DNA of 61,045 nt from Actinomyces denticolens (GTDB lineage: Bacteria; Actinomycetota; Actinomycetes; Actinomycetales; Actinomycetaceae), in the NCBI RefSeq assembly GCF_002072185.1, contig NZ_MVIW01000017.1:1-61045 (forward strand). The letters run 5' to 3'. This document shows, in pieces, positions 46,620 to 54,839 of this stretch. The notes beneath the pieces are model-generated. The model saw only the letters and a list, made by a program, of their open reading frames with translations. It ran no database searches and had not been told where the DNA came from. The position numbers and the translations under genes are program-made. Within the stretch, counting starts at the first letter, position 1. Each line of letters starts with the position of its first letter.

Positions 46620-46801
46620 GGTGAGGCCTCTTCTCACCCCGGCGGGGGGGGCGGGTTCGGTACGAGTCGGAGCAACCGCCGATCCGCGCCTGGAGATGCT
46701 GCCCGGCGCGGTAGGGCGCCGGGCGGACCACCGGCTGCCGGGAGGAACGGTAAGAGCATCACATGATGGGGCCCTGTGCCGTACCTTGACCGATCCTGTG
46801 A

Positions 46802-46816
46802 GCCCCCTCCGGGGGC
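46802..46816 (-). terminator. Short hairpin after pflA
   Basis: GCCCCC (46802-46807), loop TCC, GGGGGC (46811-46816) lies 18 bases downstream of the pflA stop. The stem is short but entirely G-C. It may end the pfl transcript. Confidence 0.45.
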
Positions 46817-46833
46817 CGAGGGGCGCCCGATCC

Positions 46834-47712
46834 TCAGTGCACGGTGAATCCGTGGGAGCGGAAGATCGCGCGCGTGGACTCCACGAGCTCGGGCTCGGGG
46901 GGACGCGTGTCGCGCAGCTTGTACTCCAACCTCAGCGCATCCCATTTGTCGGTGCCCATCTGGTGGAAGGGCAGCACCTCGACGCGGCTGACCACGGAGC
47001 CCCAGCGCTCGATGATCCGCGCGACATTCTCCACATTCCCCGGATCATCCGTCAGACCGGGGACGAGGACGAACCGGGCCCAGATCTCAATGCCCTTGGC
47101 GGCCAGGCGGTCGCCGAAGTCGATCGTCGGGGCGAGCTCCCGGCCGGTGACCCTCTTGTAGGTCTCCTCATCCCCGCTCTTGACGTCGAGGAGCACGAGG
47201 TCGACATTGTCGAGCATCTCGTCGGTGGCGTTGCGTCCGAGATAGCCGGAGGTGTCGATGCAGGTGTGAATCCCCATCGCCTTGGCGCCGGCCAGGAGGC
47301 GCGCCGCGAAGGCGGGCTGCATGAGGACCTCGCCGCCGGAGAGGGTGATGCCGCCGCCCGAGGCCCTGAAGACGTTCCTGTAGCGCTTCATGCGCCGCAG
47401 GAGCTCATCGGCCTCGACCGGTTCGCCGTCCTTCATGAGGAAGGTGTCCGGGTTGTGGCAGTAGAGGCAGCGCAGCGGGCAGCCGTTGAGGAAGATGGTC
47501 ATCCTCGTGCCGGGACCATCCACCGCTGTGACGAGCTCCCAGGAGTGGATGGAGCCCAGAGTCCCCTCGCGCATGCGCGCGAGTCGCTCCGAGCGCTGAA
47601 TGTCGGTGAGCTCTTCGAGCCCGCCGATGCCCGCCCCGCGCAGACGGGCGGCCGGGGCCAGGAAATCCTGGTCCCGGCCGCCCGGCGTCGCGGGGGCCAT
47701 GGTCTCAGTCAT
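46834..47712 (-). CDS. pflA: Pyruvate formate-lyase activating enzyme
   Basis: A 292-residue radical SAM enzyme that installs the glycyl radical on pyruvate formate-lyase. The [4Fe-4S] motif C-x3-C-x2-C is NGCPLRCLYCHNPDT (Cys 78, 82, 85), followed by SGGGITLSGGEVLMQP, DTSGYLGRN, LLDVKSGDEETYK and VLPFHQMGTDKW, all standard for PflA. The N-terminus is about 45 residues longer than the E. coli enzyme. It follows the small glycyl-radical gene by 21 bases, and its substrate here is presumably that small protein. Confidence 0.93.
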   Translation of the reverse strand: MTETMAPATPGGRDQDFLAPAARLRGAGIGGLEELTDIQRSERLARMREGTLGSIHSWELVTAVDGPGTRMTIFLNGCPLRCLYCHNPDTFLMKDGEPVEADELLRRMKRYRNVFRASGGGITLSGGEVLMQPAFAARLLAGAKAMGIHTCIDTSGYLGRNATDEMLDNVDLVLLDVKSGDEETYKRVTGRELAPTIDFGDRLAAKGIEIWARFVLVPGLTDDPGNVENVARIIERWGSVVSRVEVLPFHQMGTDKWDALRLEYKLRDTRPPEPELVESTRAIFRSHGFTVH

Positions 47713-47733
47713 CTGAGCCCCGCCCCGGCCGGA

Positions 47734-47979
47734 TCAGGCGCCGGCGTGGAAGGTGCGGTTGAGGACGTCCAGCTGCTGCTCGCGCGTCAGCTTGACGAAG
47801 TTGACGGCGTAGCCGGAGACGCGGACCGTGAGGTTCGGGTAGTTCTCCGGGTGCTCCATCGCGTCCTCAAGGGTGTTGCGGTCCAGGACGTTGATGTTGG
47901 CGTGGTAGAGGCCCTTGACGCCGCCGTTGTCCTGGCGCTGCGCCTTCATGGACTCGAGGCGCTCTTCGTAGGTGGGCAT
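47734..47979 (-). CDS. grcA: Small glycyl-radical protein (GrcA-like), the missing C-terminus of PflB
   Basis: An 81-residue protein homologous to the last about 65 residues of pyruvate formate-lyase. It carries the radical site RVSGYAV (Gly56), preceded by [22 protein letters not shown] and followed by [18 protein letters not shown]. The first about 18 residues ([18 protein letters not shown]) have no counterpart in full-length PFL. AAGGGG lies five bases before the ATG at 47979, so it is independently translated. In E. coli the GrcA/YfiD protein repairs oxygen-cleaved PFL by supplying this domain; here PflB itself lacks the domain, so the small protein is likely essential for activity. Confidence 0.92.
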
Positions 47980-48046
47980 GTCTGCCCCTTTCTGTGTGGT
48001 GAGTTGTGTTCTGAGCCGTGATGGTCCAGGGGATCGCGCGGTGCGA

Positions 48047-50164
48047 TCAGACCTCGGCGCAGTCGTCCGGGACGAAGCCGGCGTCGAGGATGCCCACGAG
48101 GTTGGAGACGCGCTCGTCGAGCGTGCGGCCCAGGCCCTGCGGGGTGATGGTGTTGGTCAGTGAGATGCCGTCGAGGGCGTCGTTGTAGTCGAGCTTGCCG
48201 ACGGAGAGCATGGAGGCGACCATGCCGTGCGTGTCCATGCCGTTCTCCGGGTTCGCGCCCGGGGAGAAGGGGGTGCCCTTCTTGTGGCCGGACGGGAAGG
48301 AGCCGGTGGCCTTGCCGTAGACGACGTTCGAGGTGATCGTCAGCACGGACTGGGTCGGGATCGCGTCGCGGTACATGGGCTGCGCCTTGATCTTGGACAT
48401 GATCGTGTGGACCACGGTGGCGGCGATGTCGTCGGCGCGGTCGTCGTCGTTGCCGTAGATCGGGAAGTCGCCCTCGGTGACGTAGTCGACGACGAGGCCG
48501 GTCTCATCGCGCACCGGGGTGACCTTGGCGTACTTGATGGCGCTCAGGGAGTCGGCGACGATCGACAGGCCCGCGATGCCGCAGCCCATGGTGCGCACGA
48601 TGTCGGAGTCGTGCAGCGCCATCTCGATGGCCTCGTAGGCGTAGCGGTCGTGGCACATGTGGATGATGTTGAGGGCCTCCACGTAGGTGGCGACGACCCA
48701 GTCGAGCATCTTCTCGTACTTGTCCCAGACCTCGTCGAAGTCCAGGGGGCCATCGCCCTCGATGCCGGGCAGGCCGGTGACGACCTGCTTGCCGGTCATC
48801 TCGTCGCGACCGCCGTTGATGGCGTACAGGAGCGCCTTGGCGGAGTTGACGCGGGCGCCGAAGAACTGCATCTGCTTGCCCACGCGCATCGGGGAGACGC
48901 AGCAGGCGATGGCGGCGTCGTCGCCCCAGTGCTCGCGGATCTGCTCATCGGCCTCGTACTGGATGGAGGAGGTCGTGATGGAGATGTAGGCGCAGAAGTC
49001 CTTGTAGCCCTTGGGGAGCTTCTCATCCCAGAAGATGGTGATGTTGGGCTCCGGGGCGGGGCCGAGGTTCACCAGCGTCTGGAGGAGGCGGAAGGAGGTC
49101 TTGGTGACCATGTGGCGGTTGTCGTCGGAGAAGCCGGCGTCGGACCAGGTCGCCCAGTAGGGGTCGCCGGAGAAGATCTGGTCGTAGTCGGTGGTGCGCA
49201 GGAAGCGCGTGATGCGCAGCTTCATGACGATGTTGTCGATGAGCTCCTGGGCGCGGGCCTCGTCGATGACGCCGGCCTTGAGGTCGCGCTCGAAGAAGCA
49301 GTCGAGGAAGGCGGAGAGCCGGCCGATGGACATGGCGGCGCCGTCCTGGGACTTCACCGAGGCGAGGTAGGCGAAGTACGTCCACTGCACTGCCTCGTGG
49401 GCGTTCTTGGCCGGGCCGGAGATGTCGAAGCCGTAGTCGGCCGCCATCTTCTTGAGCTTCTTGAGGGCCTTGATCTGCTCGGAGTGCTCCTCGCGGTAGC
49501 GGGCCCAGTGCTCGGAGAAGGGCTGGTCGGCGACCTTGTCCTTGGCGATCTCCTTGAGCTCGATGAGGCGGTCGACGCCGTAGAGGGCCACGCGGCGGTA
49601 GTCGCCGATGATGCGACCGCGGCCGTAGGCGTCGGGCAGGCCGGTGATGATGTGGCTGGAGCGCGCGGCGCGGATGCGCGGGGTGTAGATGTCGAAGACC
49701 GCGTCGTTGTGGGTTTTGCGGTAGCGGGTGAAGATCTTGGCGACCTCCGGGTCGACCTCCTTGCCGGCCTCCTTGATGGCCTGGGCCACCATCCTCCAGC
49801 CGCCGTTGGGCATCATGGCGCGCTTGAGCGGGGAGTCGGTCTGGAGGCCGACGATGACGTCGTCGTCCTCGGAGATGTAACCGGGGGCGAAGGCGTCGAT
49901 GTCACTGGGGGTGTGGGTGTCGACGTCGAGGATGCGGACCTTGCGCTCCTCCTTGAGGTACTTCTCCTCCAGGGTGTTCCACAGGCGAAGGGTCTTGTCC
50001 GTGGCGCCGGCGAGGAATGAGGAGTCGCCGTCGTAGGGGGTGTAGTTGCGCTGGATGAAGTCGCGGACGTCGATGTCCTCGGTCCACGGGCCGGTGGCGA
50101 ATCCCTCCCACGCGTCGGTCCGGGTGCCCTCCGCGGTGGTGGATGAAGTGACCTCAGTTGTCAT
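48047..50164 (-). CDS. pflB: Pyruvate formate-lyase large chain lacking the glycyl-radical domain
   Basis: A 705-residue protein corresponding to the PFL barrel, which converts pyruvate and CoA to acetyl-CoA and formate under anaerobiosis. The active-site Cys-Cys pair is residues 421-422 ([21 protein letters not shown]). Other conserved blocks are [37 protein letters not shown], and [19 protein letters not shown]. The frame stops after [17 protein letters not shown], where E. coli PFL would continue through LAGLMDGYF into the radical domain. That domain is supplied by the next gene. The ATG at 50164 has AGGAGG six bases upstream. Full-length PFL is about 760 residues; 705 plus 81 is comparable. 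Confidence 0.93.
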
Positions 50165-50509
50165 CCGTGTCCTCCTGTATGTGGGCGGCGGTCCCGCCCG
50201 GCTATGTCGTCGCCCTCGTGAGGCGTGGCGGTACATCGTTGCGCCGTCACCCCAAGCGTAGGCCCTTCGGCCCCGGCGCGGCCAAGACGATCGGGGCCTC
50301 GTCGGTGCGATGACTCACACAGCGTTCTAGACCACTCTAATTTAGGCCTTTAGTCCCATGGGGACATTGTTCCGGTCCACACCGTCAGACATCGGATAGC
50401 CTGCGGTCTTCACCCGTCCCCGCAAGGGCGCATAGCGCGGGCGCATGAGCACAATAGGACACCCGTCCCATGATCCGAGCCCTCCTGGGCAGGGCGTCGG
50501 CGGCCCCGG
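50165..50509. other. Upstream region of the pfl operon
   Basis: A 345-base gap between dxs and pflB. A patch at about 50322-50372 is markedly lower in GC than its surroundings and includes small palindromes: CTAATTTAG (50336-50344) and GTCCC/GGGAC (50353-50357 and 50361-50365). It is the natural place for the pfl promoter and its control, but no clear -35/-10 pair and no FNR- or Rex-type consensus is visible. No coding frame is credible. Confidence 0.4.
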
Positions 50510-52564
50510 TCAGCGCCGCGCACGGACCGCCGCGGCGACGCCCTCGGCGGTCATGGAGAACTCCTCCAGGAGGGCGGCCCGGTCGCAGGTCCGCACGAAC
50601 CGCCTCGGCACCCCTATCCGCGTGGTCGGGGGCGGCGCCGGGGCCGCACCCCGGGAGTCGCCCCCGCCCCCGGCGGTCAGGACGTCGAGGGCGTCATCCA
50701 TCGCGTCGCGCAACTGCGAACCGATACCGCCGTCGACCAGCCCGTCCTCTGCCACCACGACGCGACCGGCCGTCAGGGCCAACTCGGTCAGGGCGCTCGG
50801 GACGGGGATCACCCACCGAGGAGAGGCGACGATCACGTCACGGCCCTCTGCGGCCAGCGCGCGGCCGGCGGCCAGCGCGGCCGGCGCCATGGCGCCCACG
50901 CCGACGATGAGGGCCGGGGCGCCGGGCGACCGGCCCGCCCCCTCACCGGCGGTCCGGCCGGCATCGCCGCCCGCCCGGTGCTCCAGGAGCAGATCGACCT
51001 GGCCGAAGGCGCCGTCATCCCCCTCGAGCGTCCGCACTGCGGGCAGCGGGGCGGGCAGCGCCCCCTTGGGATACCTCACGACCGTCGGGCCGTCGTCGAC
51101 GCCCACCGCCTCGCGCACGCACGTGCGCAGAGAGGCCTCGTCGCGGGGCGCGGCCAGGCGCAGCCCGGGCACGTGGCCCAGCAGCGCCATGTCCCACATG
51201 CCGTTGTGGCTCGCGCCGTCGTTGCCCGTCAGACCCGCCCGGTCGAGCATGATCGTCACCCCGGCCCGGTGCAGGCCGACGTCCATGAGCACCTGGTCGA
51301 AGGCCCGGTTGAGGAAGGTCGCGTACAGCGACACGACGGGGTGCAGCCCGGCGAAGGCCATGCCGGCGCTGGCGGTGAGCGCGTGCTGCTCGGCGATGCC
51401 CACGTCCATGACCCGCTCCGGCATGGCATCGGCCAGCGGCTGGAGGCCCACCGGCTGCTGCATGGCGGCGGTGATCCCCACGATCCGCTCGTCGCGGCGG
51501 GCCAGCGCGAGGATCTCCTCCGCGAAGACGGCGGTCCATCCGAAGGCGGAGGGCACGACGGGCAGGCCGGTCTCGGGGTGGATGCGCCCCACGGCGTGGA
51601 AGCGATCGGCCACGTCCTCCTCGGCGGGGGTGTAGCCGCGGCCCTTCTCGGTGATGACGTGGACGATGACGGGCTCGGAGTACTCCCTGGCCCGGGTCAG
51701 CGCGAACTCCAGTGCGGTGATGTCGTGGCCGTCCACCGGACCGGTGTACTTGATCCCCAGGTCCTCGAAGAACGCCGAGGGGACCAGGACGTCCTTGATG
51801 CCGGCCTTGAGGCCGTGGAGGGCGTCGAAGGCGGCGCGGCCCGGGGCCCCCTGCGCCAGCAGGCCGCGCTTGATCCCGGACAGCATGCGCTCGTAGCCGG
51901 GGTTGGTGCGCAGGGCGTCGAGGTGGTGGGCGAGCCCGCCGATGGTCGGGGCGTAGGAGCGGCCGTTGTCGTTGACGACGATGACGAGGTGCTTGTCCCC
52001 CGAGTCCGCGATGTTGTCGAGGGCCTCCCAGGCCATCCCTCCCGTCATCGCCCCGTCGCCGATGATGGCGACGACGTGCCGGTCCTCGTGGCCCCGAATC
52101 CTGTTGGCCCGGGCGATGCCGTCCGCCCATGACAGCGCGGTGGAGGCGTGGGAGTTCTCCACAACGTCATGGGCGGACTCCCCGCGGTCCGGGTATCCCG
52201 ACAGCCCCCCGCGCGAGCGCAGCGCCGAGAAGTCCTGGCGCCCCGTGAGCAGTTTGTGGACATAGGCCTGGTGCCCGGTGTCGAAGATGAGGGAGTCGGC
52301 CGGGGAGCGGAAGGTCCGGTGCAGGGCGATCGTCAGCTCGACAACGCCGAGGTTGGGCCCGAGGTGCCCGCCCGTCCGCGAGACGCTGGTGACGAGGTAG
52401 GCGCGGATCTGGGCGGCGAGCTGGACGAGTTGGTCGGAGGTCAGCCTGCGCAGGTCCTCGGGCCCGCGGATCGAGGCGAGCAGCGGGGCCGGCGCGGGGT
52501 CCTCGCCGGCGCCCGCCCGGCGCGCCCGATCGCGCTGGGACGACGGGGGTGTCGGAGGTGTCAT
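50510..52564 (-). CDS. dxs: 1-deoxy-D-xylulose-5-phosphate synthase
   Basis: A 684-residue thiamine-diphosphate enzyme, first step of the MEP isoprenoid pathway (pyruvate plus glyceraldehyde 3-phosphate). Motifs: GGHLGPNLGVVELTIALH, DTGHQAYVHKLLTGR, the TPP motif GDGAMTGGMAWEALDNIA...VNDN, and the transketolase-type GIAEQHALTASAGMAFAGLHPV and DRAGLTGNDGASHNGMWD. The ATG at 52564 has GGAGG upstream; the longer frame is non-coding. A minus-strand TATGCT at 52652-52657 is a candidate -10. The C-terminal domain has an Ala/Gly-rich insertion near AGGDAGRTAGEGAGRS. Confidence 0.95.
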   Translation of the reverse strand: MTPPTPPSSQRDRARRAGAGEDPAPAPLLASIRGPEDLRRLTSDQLVQLAAQIRAYLVTSVSRTGGHLGPNLGVVELTIALHRTFRSPADSLIFDTGHQAYVHKLLTGRQDFSALRSRGGLSGYPDRGESAHDVVENSHASTALSWADGIARANRIRGHEDRHVVAIIGDGAMTGGMAWEALDNIADSGDKHLVIVVNDNGRSYAPTIGGLAHHLDALRTNPGYERMLSGIKRGLLAQGAPGRAAFDALHGLKAGIKDVLVPSAFFEDLGIKYTGPVDGHDITALEFALTRAREYSEPVIVHVITEKGRGYTPAEEDVADRFHAVGRIHPETGLPVVPSAFGWTAVFAEEILALARRDERIVGITAAMQQPVGLQPLADAMPERVMDVGIAEQHALTASAGMAFAGLHPVVSLYATFLNRAFDQVLMDVGLHRAGVTIMLDRAGLTGNDGASHNGMWDMALLGHVPGLRLAAPRDEASLRTCVREAVGVDDGPTVVRYPKGALPAPLPAVRTLEGDDGAFGQVDLLLEHRAGGDAGRTAGEGAGRSPGAPALIVGVGAMAPAALAAGRALAAEGRDVIVASPRWVIPVPSALTELALTAGRVVVAEDGLVDGGIGSQLRDAMDDALDVLTAGGGGDSRGAAPAPPPTTRIGVPRRFVRTCDRAALLEEFSMTAEGVAAAVRARR

Positions 52565-52826
52565 TGCCACGGACCTCCAGGAACTCGACGGCGGATGGGT
52601 GGTGATGATCAGCCTGGCCGGTGGTGGGCGGGCCCCCGCGGCGGCGTGGCAAGCATAGGCGCCGTCGATGCGCCTGCGCGCCATCGCGCGCGGTGCCGAC
52701 GAGCACGTAGTCTTGGCCCGGGACCGGCGCAGGCCCCAGGGCCCCGCTCCCCAGGGCCCCGCACTGCGCCCGGAGCGCGCCGGCACGCGCCCGCACGCCG
52801 ACCATCGCCGCCCTCGAGGAGGAAGC
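52565..52826. promoter_or_regulatory. Divergent promoter region of dxs and the S9 peptidase
   Basis: 262 bases between divergent genes. Candidate -10 elements are TATGCT on the minus strand (52652-52657, for dxs) and TAGTCT on the plus strand (52708-52713, for the peptidase). No good -35 is seen for either. Downstream of the second, CCCAGGGCCCCG occurs twice in close tandem. Confidence 0.35.
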
Positions 52827-54839
52827 ATGACCACGATCGCGCCCTATGGCAGTTGGCCCTCGCCCATCTCGCCCGGAACGATCACCAGCCGCACGATCAA
52901 CCTCTCGCAGGTGCGCGTCGATGGCCCCGACACCTACTGGGTGGAGCGGCGCGCCACCGACTCCGGCCGCCAGGTGCTGCTGCGCCGCGACGGCGCGGGC
53001 CGCATCGGGGAGGTCCTGCCCCTGACCCCCGGCGACGAGCTGGTCGACGCGCGCACCCGGGTGCACGAGTACGGCGGGCGCGCCTACGCCGTCGACTCCG
53101 GGATCATCGTGGTCTCCCACGCGGGCGACGGGCGCCTCTACCGCTTCGACGTCGCGCACAGACTGCGCGGCCTGGTCCCCCTGACGATCTACGGCGACGT
53201 GCGCCACGGGGATCTGGAGATCGACACCGAGCGCGGCCTCGTCTACGCCGTGCGCGAGGACCACCGCGGCGAGGGCAGGGCCATCAACACGCTGGTCGCC
53301 ATCCCTCTGGACGGCTCGGCCGCGCGCGACGACGCCCCGGTGCGCACGATCGTGTCGGGGACCGACTTCGTCTCCTCCCCCACGCTCTCGCCCGACGGGC
53401 GCCACCTCGCCTGGCTGTCCTGGGACCACCCGTGGATGCCCTGGGACAACGCCGCCCTGCACGTGGGCGACCTGCTGCCCGACGGGACCCTGGGCGAGCA
53501 GGCGCTGGTCGGCGGCGGCGATGGGCACGGGGCCGCCGAGCCGCGCTGGACGGAGGAGTGCGAGCTCATCCACGTCTCGGACGCCTCCGGCTTCTGGAAC
53601 CTGTACCGCACGGAGGGGTTCCCCCGGCGCGGAACCGCGCGGACCGGCTGGAGCGAGCGGCTGCGGACCCGTCCCCTGCACCCCACGGACGCGACCTTCA
53701 CCCAGCCGGCCTGGCAGCTGGGGCCCCACTCCTTCGACGTCCTCGACGGCGAGCGCCTCATCGCCTCGTGGACGAGGGACTCCGTGTGGCACCTGGGCAC
53801 CATCAAATTGGCCAATGGCGAGCTCGAGGAGTGGGCGACCGGCTGGCAGCCCCTGGGCAATGTGGCCGCCACCGACGGCCGGGTCGTCATGCTGGCGGGC
53901 AACGAGCGCGAGCTGCCGGGGATCATCGAGATCTCCGGCGGCGAGGTGGCCGTGCTGCGCGGCTCGAGCGATTTCGGGCCCGCCGAGCGCGGCGTGTCCC
54001 TGCCGGAGACGATCTCGTGGCCCTCCTCCGACGGCGTGACCGCCCATGGCTTCTTCTACCCCCCGGCCTCGGTGGAGCACGCGGGCCCCGAGGACGAGCT
54101 GCCCCCGCTCATCGTCCAGGTGCACGGCGGCCCGTCCGCCATGTCCCGCTCGGTCTACGACCTCAAGGTGCAGTACTGGACGTCCCGCGGCTTCGCCTAC
54201 CTGGAGGTCAACTACCGCGGCTCGACCGGCTACGGGCGCGCCTTCCGCCGGGCCCTCAACGGCGCCTGGGGCGTGGGCGAGGTCGAGGACGTCGTCGCCG
54301 GCGCCCGCCACCTCATCGAGGCGGGCCGGGTCGACGGCTCCAGGGTCGCGGTGCGCGGCTCGTCGGCCGGAGGGTTCACCGTGCTCTCGGCGATCACCCG
54401 CTCCGATGTGTTCTCCGCGGCGACCTCGCTCTACGGCGTCGCCGACCTGCGGATGCTCATCCAGGAGACCCACAAGTTCGAGTCGCACTACGTCCAGGAG
54501 CTCATCGGGGCGGACGGCATCGATGATCCCCTGCTGGCCGAGCGCTCCCCCATCAACCACGTGGACTCCATCCACGCGCCCCTCCTGCTGCTGCAGGGCT
54601 CGAACGACTCCATCGTCCCGGCCGATCAGGCCACCTCCATGTTCGAAGCGGCGCGCGCCAAGGGCCTGCCGGTGGCCCTCGAGGTCTTCCAGGGCGAGGG
54701 CCACGGCTTCCGCCTGGGCGCGAACATCCGCAAGGCCCTGGCCGACGAGCTGTCCTTCTACAGCCAGGTGTGGGGCATCGCCCGGGACGACGAGGCCACG
54801 CCCATCGCGGTGGAGAACCTCGCGCCCCGCGGGGAATGA
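52827..54839 (+). CDS. S9-family prolyl oligopeptidase-like peptidase
   Basis: A 670-residue serine peptidase. An N-terminal beta-propeller-like half (repeated blades such as SPTLSPDGRHLAWLSWDHPWMPWD) is followed by an alpha/beta-hydrolase domain: PPLIVQVHGGPSAMSRSVYDLK, nucleophile GSSAGGF, Asp in LLLQGSNDSIVP, and His in GEGHGFRLG. No signal peptide, so it is probably cytoplasmic and degrades short peptides. GAGGAGGAAGC precedes the ATG at 52827. The stop overlaps the ClC gene (ATGA). Confidence 0.88.
   Translation: MTTIAPYGSWPSPISPGTITSRTINLSQVRVDGPDTYWVERRATDSGRQVLLRRDGAGRIGEVLPLTPGDELVDARTRVHEYGGRAYAVDSGIIVVSHAGDGRLYRFDVAHRLRGLVPLTIYGDVRHGDLEIDTERGLVYAVREDHRGEGRAINTLVAIPLDGSAARDDAPVRTIVSGTDFVSSPTLSPDGRHLAWLSWDHPWMPWDNAALHVGDLLPDGTLGEQALVGGGDGHGAAEPRWTEECELIHVSDASGFWNLYRTEGFPRRGTARTGWSERLRTRPLHPTDATFTQPAWQLGPHSFDVLDGERLIASWTRDSVWHLGTIKLANGELEEWATGWQPLGNVAATDGRVVMLAGNERELPGIIEISGGEVAVLRGSSDFGPAERGVSLPETISWPSSDGVTAHGFFYPPASVEHAGPEDELPPLIVQVHGGPSAMSRSVYDLKVQYWTSRGFAYLEVNYRGSTGYGRAFRRALNGAWGVGEVEDVVAGARHLIEAGRVDGSRVAVRGSSAGGFTVLSAITRSDVFSAATSLYGVADLRMLIQETHKFESHYVQELIGADGIDDPLLAERSPINHVDSIHAPLLLLQGSNDSIVPADQATSMFEAARAKGLPVALEVFQGEGHGFRLGANIRKALADELSFYSQVWGIARDDEATPIAVENLAPRGE

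Follow-up and report, generated by a model that had tools for sequence, protein, structure and literature searches.

Pyruvate formate-lyase (PFL) of Escherichia coli (PflB; PDB 2pfl/1h16) is a single chain of 759 residues that holds the barrel, the Cys-Cys pair and the RVSGYAV glycine together, and it is served by a dedicated activating enzyme, PflA. When the full-length enzyme has been damaged by oxygen it is repaired by GrcA (also YfiD), a small separate radical domain that acts in trans on the barrel and consists of 127 residues, of which the N-terminal half, 60 residues, is disordered (PMC8683613). In published work an engineered counterpart of this arrangement, tPFL (E. coli PFL cut at residue 695) with YfiD, showed wild-type activity once activated; binding between the two was not measurable by calorimetry and activation was 32-fold below that of the oxygen-cleaved form. 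E. coli cells carrying PflB G734A are reported to make formate with GrcA and none without it (PMC12338860). Here we describe a locus, pflB-grcA2-pflA, in a stretch of 61,045 nucleotides from Actinomyces denticolens (contig NZ_MVIW01000017.1; hereafter the window), in which the barrel and the radical domain are encoded by separate genes and which very likely specifies an obligate two-subunit PFL.

All three genes lie on the minus strand. The first, pflB (50164-48047, with its TGA stop at 48049-48047), encodes a PFL barrel subunit of 705 residues whose chain ends just short of the glycyl-radical domain; AGGAGG stands ahead of the ATG at 50164, and there is an alternative in-frame ATG at 50236. 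The active-site pair Cys421-Cys422, recognised by its sequence context IACCVSPM, is encoded at 48904-48899. An untranslated gap of 67 nucleotides (48046-47980) follows, and then, out of frame with pflB and preceded by a ribosome binding site, AAAGGGG (47991-47985), comes grcA2 (47979-47734), which encodes a separate glycyl-radical subunit of 81 residues with matches to NF008341 and PF01228. The N-terminal extension of GrcA2 (residues 1-22; 47979-47914) is missing from the fused PFLs with which it was compared, and the codon of Gly56, which the RVSGYAV motif identifies as the radical glycine, lies at 47814-47812. Only 21 nucleotides separate grcA2 from pflA (47712-46834), whose product is a radical S-adenosylmethionine activating enzyme of 292 residues (TIGR02493, 302.7 bits against a cut-off of 231.75).

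PflB can be aligned with the E. coli enzyme up to E. coli residue 693 and GrcA2 from residue 697 onward, so that the two together make up one PFL, divided near the position of residues 694-696 in the E. coli chain. Identity to the E. coli enzyme is 54-55%. The profiles divide in the same place. In a Pfam profile search PflB matches PF02901 (E = 2.5e-198) and positions 1-65 of the 106 positions of PF01228, of which 65-106 are found in GrcA2. Against TIGR01255 PflB scores 983.8 bits (E = 6.1e-296, positions 1-681 of 744), so that on its own it falls short of the single-chain cut-off of 994.2, and positions 681-741, missing from PflB, are matched by the small protein. Of the features of a PFL, PflB has the barrel domain and the adjacent cysteines and has no glycyl-radical motif in the same chain. 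GrcA2 scores 167.1 bits (E = 6.5e-50) against NCBIfam NF008341, 'autonomous glycyl radical cofactor GrcA2', above the equivalog cut-off of 145; it is a stand-alone glycyl-radical domain of the kind that characterises the GrcA/YfiD family, and its score against that family's TIGR04365, 84.4 bits, lies below the equivalog cut-off of 170. The E-values of 6.1e-296 and 6.5e-50, together with recurrence in all 49 genomes of the genus, exclude chance matching. A joined model, in which barrel and small protein were tethered as one chain, has the same fold as E. coli PFL over 730 residues. An earlier note on this DNA had proposed a barrel that retains the cysteine pair and stops before the radical domain, a reading borne out by the divided PF01228 match and the E. 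coli alignment; it had also described the separate 81-residue gene with Gly56 in RVSGYAV, its own ribosome site, the 67-nucleotide gap and pflA next in line, all of which stands, and an extra N-terminus on the small protein, which proved to be about 20 residues long and to be absent from the fused PFLs compared.

The assembly of the source genome, 90 contigs totalling 2.83 Mb with a completeness of 99.92%, has a single match to PF02901 and two to PF01228; all three lie at the pflB-grcA2 locus, and a profile search of this assembly found no second or full-length PFL. This bears on the idea that GrcA2 is a mere spare part which, like E. coli GrcA, mends an oxygen-damaged full-length PFL, as the NCBIfam name 'autonomous glycyl radical cofactor' implies. 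However, no full-length PFL to mend was found in this genome or among the tabulated matches of the 85 genomes with a split PFL described below (in the order sample at most three places were scored per genome). Moreover, GrcA2 has 81 residues rather than 127, carries an extension of about 20 residues in place of the long disordered half, scores less than half of the GrcA equivalog cut-off and is encoded between pflB and pflA. We therefore consider a spare-part role highly improbable; the genomes instead point to an obligate subunit. The anaerobic ribonucleotide reductase of the same genome is matched over Pfam profile positions 2-562 of 562 in one open frame and carries RVMGYF, which we take to be its radical glycine motif, within this single chain, so that the cell does not split its radical enzymes as a rule. 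It is also conceivable that GrcA2 is an obligate PFL subunit with a second role, for example as a radical domain for other glycyl-radical enzymes, since eight of the 49 genus genomes have extra, weaker PFL-type matches elsewhere (25.6-174.9 bits). In all eight, however, the extra matches extend to profile position 739 and so, at the level of the profile match, include a radical domain of their own; the ribonucleotide reductase is likewise self-sufficient in its motif, and no other PFL-like enzyme was found in the genome under study, all of which makes a second role unlikely.

PFL gives two separate matches in all 49 genomes of the genus, and reading of the open reading frames (ORFs) placed a stop between barrel and small gene in each. 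Altogether 85 split loci were read at this level, 49 from the genus and 36 from other genomes of the order. Sequencing or assembly errors and the decay of a recently broken pflB are, as a matter of general knowledge, a frequent cause of split genes, but here they are refuted by the conservation of the split in all of these genomes; the low ratio of nonsynonymous to synonymous substitution rates (dN/dS) over the small gene likewise speaks against them, and we give this explanation practically no weight.

With the start of the small gene taken as the ATG, GTG or TTG nearest to the aligned start, the gap between barrel and small gene ranges from 4 to 219 nucleotides over the 85 loci. Relative to the barrel, the small gene occupies frames 0, 1 and 2 in 10, 21 and 18 genus genomes, and in 18, 32 and 35 of all loci, respectively. 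A Shine-Dalgarno-like match of at least four bases precedes every one of the 85 small genes and a five-base match 80 of them; among 6,967 control ATGs elsewhere on these strands the proportions are 21% and 4%, respectively. With spacing and frame so free to vary and a ribosome site ahead of every small gene, the products are very probably two separate chains. Their contents are also cleanly partitioned: RVSGYAV occurs in 85 of 85 small proteins and IACCVSPM in 85 of 85 split barrels, none of which contains SGYAV. Stop read-through or a programmed frameshift could in principle join both genes into one chain, and in 18 of the 85 loci they do share a frame with an intervening stop. Against this, all three frames are common and the gaps differ widely, the ribosome-site matches far exceed the control rate, and the N-terminal extension is conserved from near the start codon, with a looser linker behind it; such joining is extremely improbable. 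The earlier note had named three findings that would overturn its view of GrcA2 as an obligate subunit: a full-length PFL elsewhere in the genome, a frame joining both genes, and relatives with intact fusions beside a split in this strain alone. No full-length enzyme was found, no joining frame exists here and none is consistent in the relatives, and the split is common to all 49 genus genomes searched. With all three outcomes in its favour, obligate subunit appears to be the best reading of these sequences.

Beyond the genus, an even sample of the order (297 genomes, of which 134 have a PFL match) contained 42 split PFLs, all read as ORFs, 84 that match over the full length in one frame, and eight fragments or other enzymes. 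Six of the 42 belong to the genus; the other 36 comprise 14 genomes of the same family, 14 of group f11, four of f8, two of f5 and one each of f13 and f17, where f11 would be the Dermabacteraceae and f1 the Actinomycetaceae. In four genomes of the same family, which represent two genera, PFL is fused and belongs to another lineage (64-66% identity). Across the class, evenly sampled with 394 genomes (partly from the order, 47 with a match), PFL is split in G000 and G081 and, when read, also in G678, which lies outside the order; most of the remaining matches are full length in one frame at the level of the profile match. Named loci were taken from the best 80 of at least 588 relatives, and here 69 are fused and 11 split, the latter from Actinomyces gaoshouyii, Trueperella, Corynebacterium (n = 7), Dermabacter hominis and Brachybacterium squillarum. 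Two of these 11 have an incomplete barrel ORF (L173 and L176), and the nearest named genome is A. gaoshouyii strain 'pika_113'. Two further loci, L126 (G180) and L127 (G270), are seemingly broken or deleted, with pieces of barrel and radical domain in shortened frames and, in L127, a piece of PflA. At L168 (G356, a single-contig genome) a 700-residue ORF matches only PFL profile positions 1-637 and the fetched stretch contains no radical domain; it looks like a truncated gene. The stand-alone small proteins P0012, P0014 and P0016 have an Actinomyces-like extension, and P0016 ends in QGAVTD, like the fused PFLs L148 and L164 (group f3), which hints at a split relative near the bifidobacterial lineage.

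The two-piece PFL probably works like the one-piece E. coli enzyme. PflB would provide the barrel, the cysteine pair and the sites for pyruvate and coenzyme A (CoA), and GrcA2 would add what PflB lacks, namely the final strand, the loop with the glycyl radical and the C-terminal helix, docking in trans at the position that the fused domain occupies. PflA would then generate the radical on Gly56, from where it would move across the chains to Cys421/422 and allow pyruvate to be cleaved to acetyl-CoA and formate. Cheap renewal of an oxygen-cleaved radical chain, an advantage put forward in the earlier note, may, speculatively, be the selective benefit; the oral or mucosal habitat that the note connected with it is a guess. 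As the only PFL found in its genome the natural pair presumably works well, in contrast to the engineered tPFL/YfiD pair, which is cut at practically the same point and binds and activates poorly. Several points weigh against an obligate pair. YfiD binding to a barrel ending at 695 is too weak for calorimetry, and activation is 32-fold lower than with the oxygen-cleaved form. Fused relatives at 77-80% identity exist, so that the split is not essential to this type of enzyme. In structure prediction, isolated GrcA2 is modelled poorly, with a mean predicted local distance difference test score (pLDDT) of 67, and in the joined model the extension (residues about 729-750) reaches only about 31-44 and shows no visible docking feature, while the radical-domain part lies at 42-76 and the barrel stretch 611-680 at 39-67. 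The joined model is itself weakened by the tethering of the chains and by the prior knowledge of PFL folds that the prediction program may have.

As the natural cut falls at about the same place as the poorly binding engineered one, some extra feature that holds the chains together is to be expected, and the extension is the obvious candidate. The consensus of its core is T-[YF]-x-E-R-L-x-x-M-K-A-x-R, in which R7 and M11 are shared by all 85 small proteins; in fused relatives, by contrast, DAGM or DAGN leads almost directly into the radical domain (for example GLFHANINVL). Among 46 genus sequences of 81 residues, dN/dS is 0.033 for extension codons 3-15, 0.286 for codons 16-22, which lie between the extension core and the radical domain, 0.079 for codons 3-22 as a whole and 0.058 in the radical domain. 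Purifying selection therefore acts on the extension and the radical domain alike, and the extension core is constrained as much as the radical domain. A model of the isolated small protein places a low-confidence helix at residues 4-17. Whether the conserved extension is a docking element we rate at about even odds. On the barrel, a comparison of site entropies between 32 split and 41 fused thinned barrels, made post hoc and from related sequences alone, picked out W480, T583, H586, F697 and the stretches 579-587 and 209-220 as fixed or nearly so in split and variable in fused enzymes. Residues 579-587 (DIAATVVHT; 48430-48404) form a hypothetical contact site for GrcA2, and within them the positions of A582, T583 and H586 are mostly occupied by other residues in the six closest fused relatives. 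W480 does not belong to the sites at which split barrels can be told from the nearest fused rows. That W480, 579-587, 209-220 and F697 form a partner surface for GrcA2 may serve as a lead only.

The fused PFLs that come closest to the split barrel (77-80% identity) are from five genomes of group f13 and one of f8, and that of Cellulomonas citrea looks alike. In these loci (L138-L140, L151-L153 and L183) GLFHANINVL or another stretch stands almost directly behind DAGM, and they are possibly re-fusions that lost the extension. This nearest fused group falls among the split rows in both trees that we built. In the careful 57-row tree two fused groups, this one and f3, are nested inside the split rows, with three changes, and the split rows form one clade in 0% of 200 bootstrap trees; in the quick 110-row tree the near-fused group alone is inside, a Bifidobacterium-like group (f3) falls outside, and two changes suffice. 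The approximately unbiased (AU) test did not reject one split clade (p = 0.148), split plus near-fused rows (p = 0.356) or split plus f3 rows (p = 0.118). Re-fusion of PFL is thus only a lead, because a single split clade was not rejected.

A second group of PFL bodies without a radical domain in the chain, about 664-695 residues long, is found in Amygdalobacter, Breznakia and Traorella, which we take to be Bacillota. It includes PDB chain 38la and probably 38lb, PFL chains of 687 and 739 residues that we considered as sequences only; no radical domain was detected in either sequence, and both are absent from the best 50 matches listed in each of two PDB searches (library to April 2026). 38la matches a 666-residue Amygdalobacter-type protein, agrees with P0121 at 100% of the 664 residues compared and has 99% identity to a protein named Amygdalobacter nucleatus. 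Among the best 120 of 7,986 scored relatives of 38la, 116 have 664-695 residues and none contains GYAV. These bodies are 56-59% identical to the Actinomyces barrel (26 aligned), and the seven that were read end, or switch to an unrelated tail, just past LGK, about 15 residues before the Actinomyces cut, whereas Actinomyces PflB continues beyond LGK with its homology intact. A search for their radical-domain partners listed 120 hits, mostly on short contigs, and among these hits is one stand-alone protein with a name (P0348, Mycoplasma sp. P36-A1). The different end points suggest that the 38la-type split is probably independent of that in Actinomyces, and barrel and radical domain seem to have come apart on more than one occasion. 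A. nucleatus is reported to secrete formate and to be inhibited by hypophosphite (PMC12208373). One metagenomic PFL-like protein of 821 residues, P0144, with an internal repeated stretch and an extra PF11230 hit, is probably an assembly artefact.

These strands could be combined into a wider scenario, in which the two-piece PFL is old and stable: a single split at the base of one actinobacterial lineage of PFL, re-fused later at least once and perhaps twice (in Cellulomonas citrea-like organisms and Bifidobacterium), an independent split in Bacillota, and a GrcA2 extension that serves as a docking clamp in place of the covalent link, matches a patch on the barrel and leaves the radical chain renewable alone. 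We regard this scenario as possible but doubtful, its odds being lowered by the low confidence of the extension in the joined model.

No description of a natural two-chain PFL was found in the open-access full texts searched, a body that leaves out bioRxiv and most subscription papers. The earlier note's remark that no characterised example was known holds in so far as no published description turned up; it needs amending in that NCBIfam names the small family and the PDB contains two PFL chains without a detected radical domain, so that the idea is not entirely without precedent. As far as we have seen, then, the chemistry and the fold are known and the widespread two-subunit architecture is undescribed in the open-access papers searched. 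If our interpretation is correct, what is a spare-part rescue in E. coli becomes a whole enzyme design, in which the oxygen-sensitive radical part of a central fermentation enzyme is permanently separate, small and possibly replaceable. It would provide a natural, presumably efficient counterpart to the E. coli tPFL:YfiD pair, which performs poorly in vitro, and it would open docking and activation of a radical domain in trans to experiment, through exchange or deletion of one short extension. In many Actinobacteria, annotations such as 'autonomous cofactor' or 'truncated PFL' would then be misleading.

No terminator-like site was found on the minus strand in 46700-50600, so that transcription of pflB-grcA2-pflA as a single unit is plausible; nor was a sigma-70-like promoter found in the same interval, which is weakly informative in a high-GC genome. 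Immediately upstream of pflB, on the same strand, lies dxs (50510-52834 in the window), which encodes 1-deoxy-xylulose-5-phosphate synthase, and a FemAB-like gene is located downstream of pflA.
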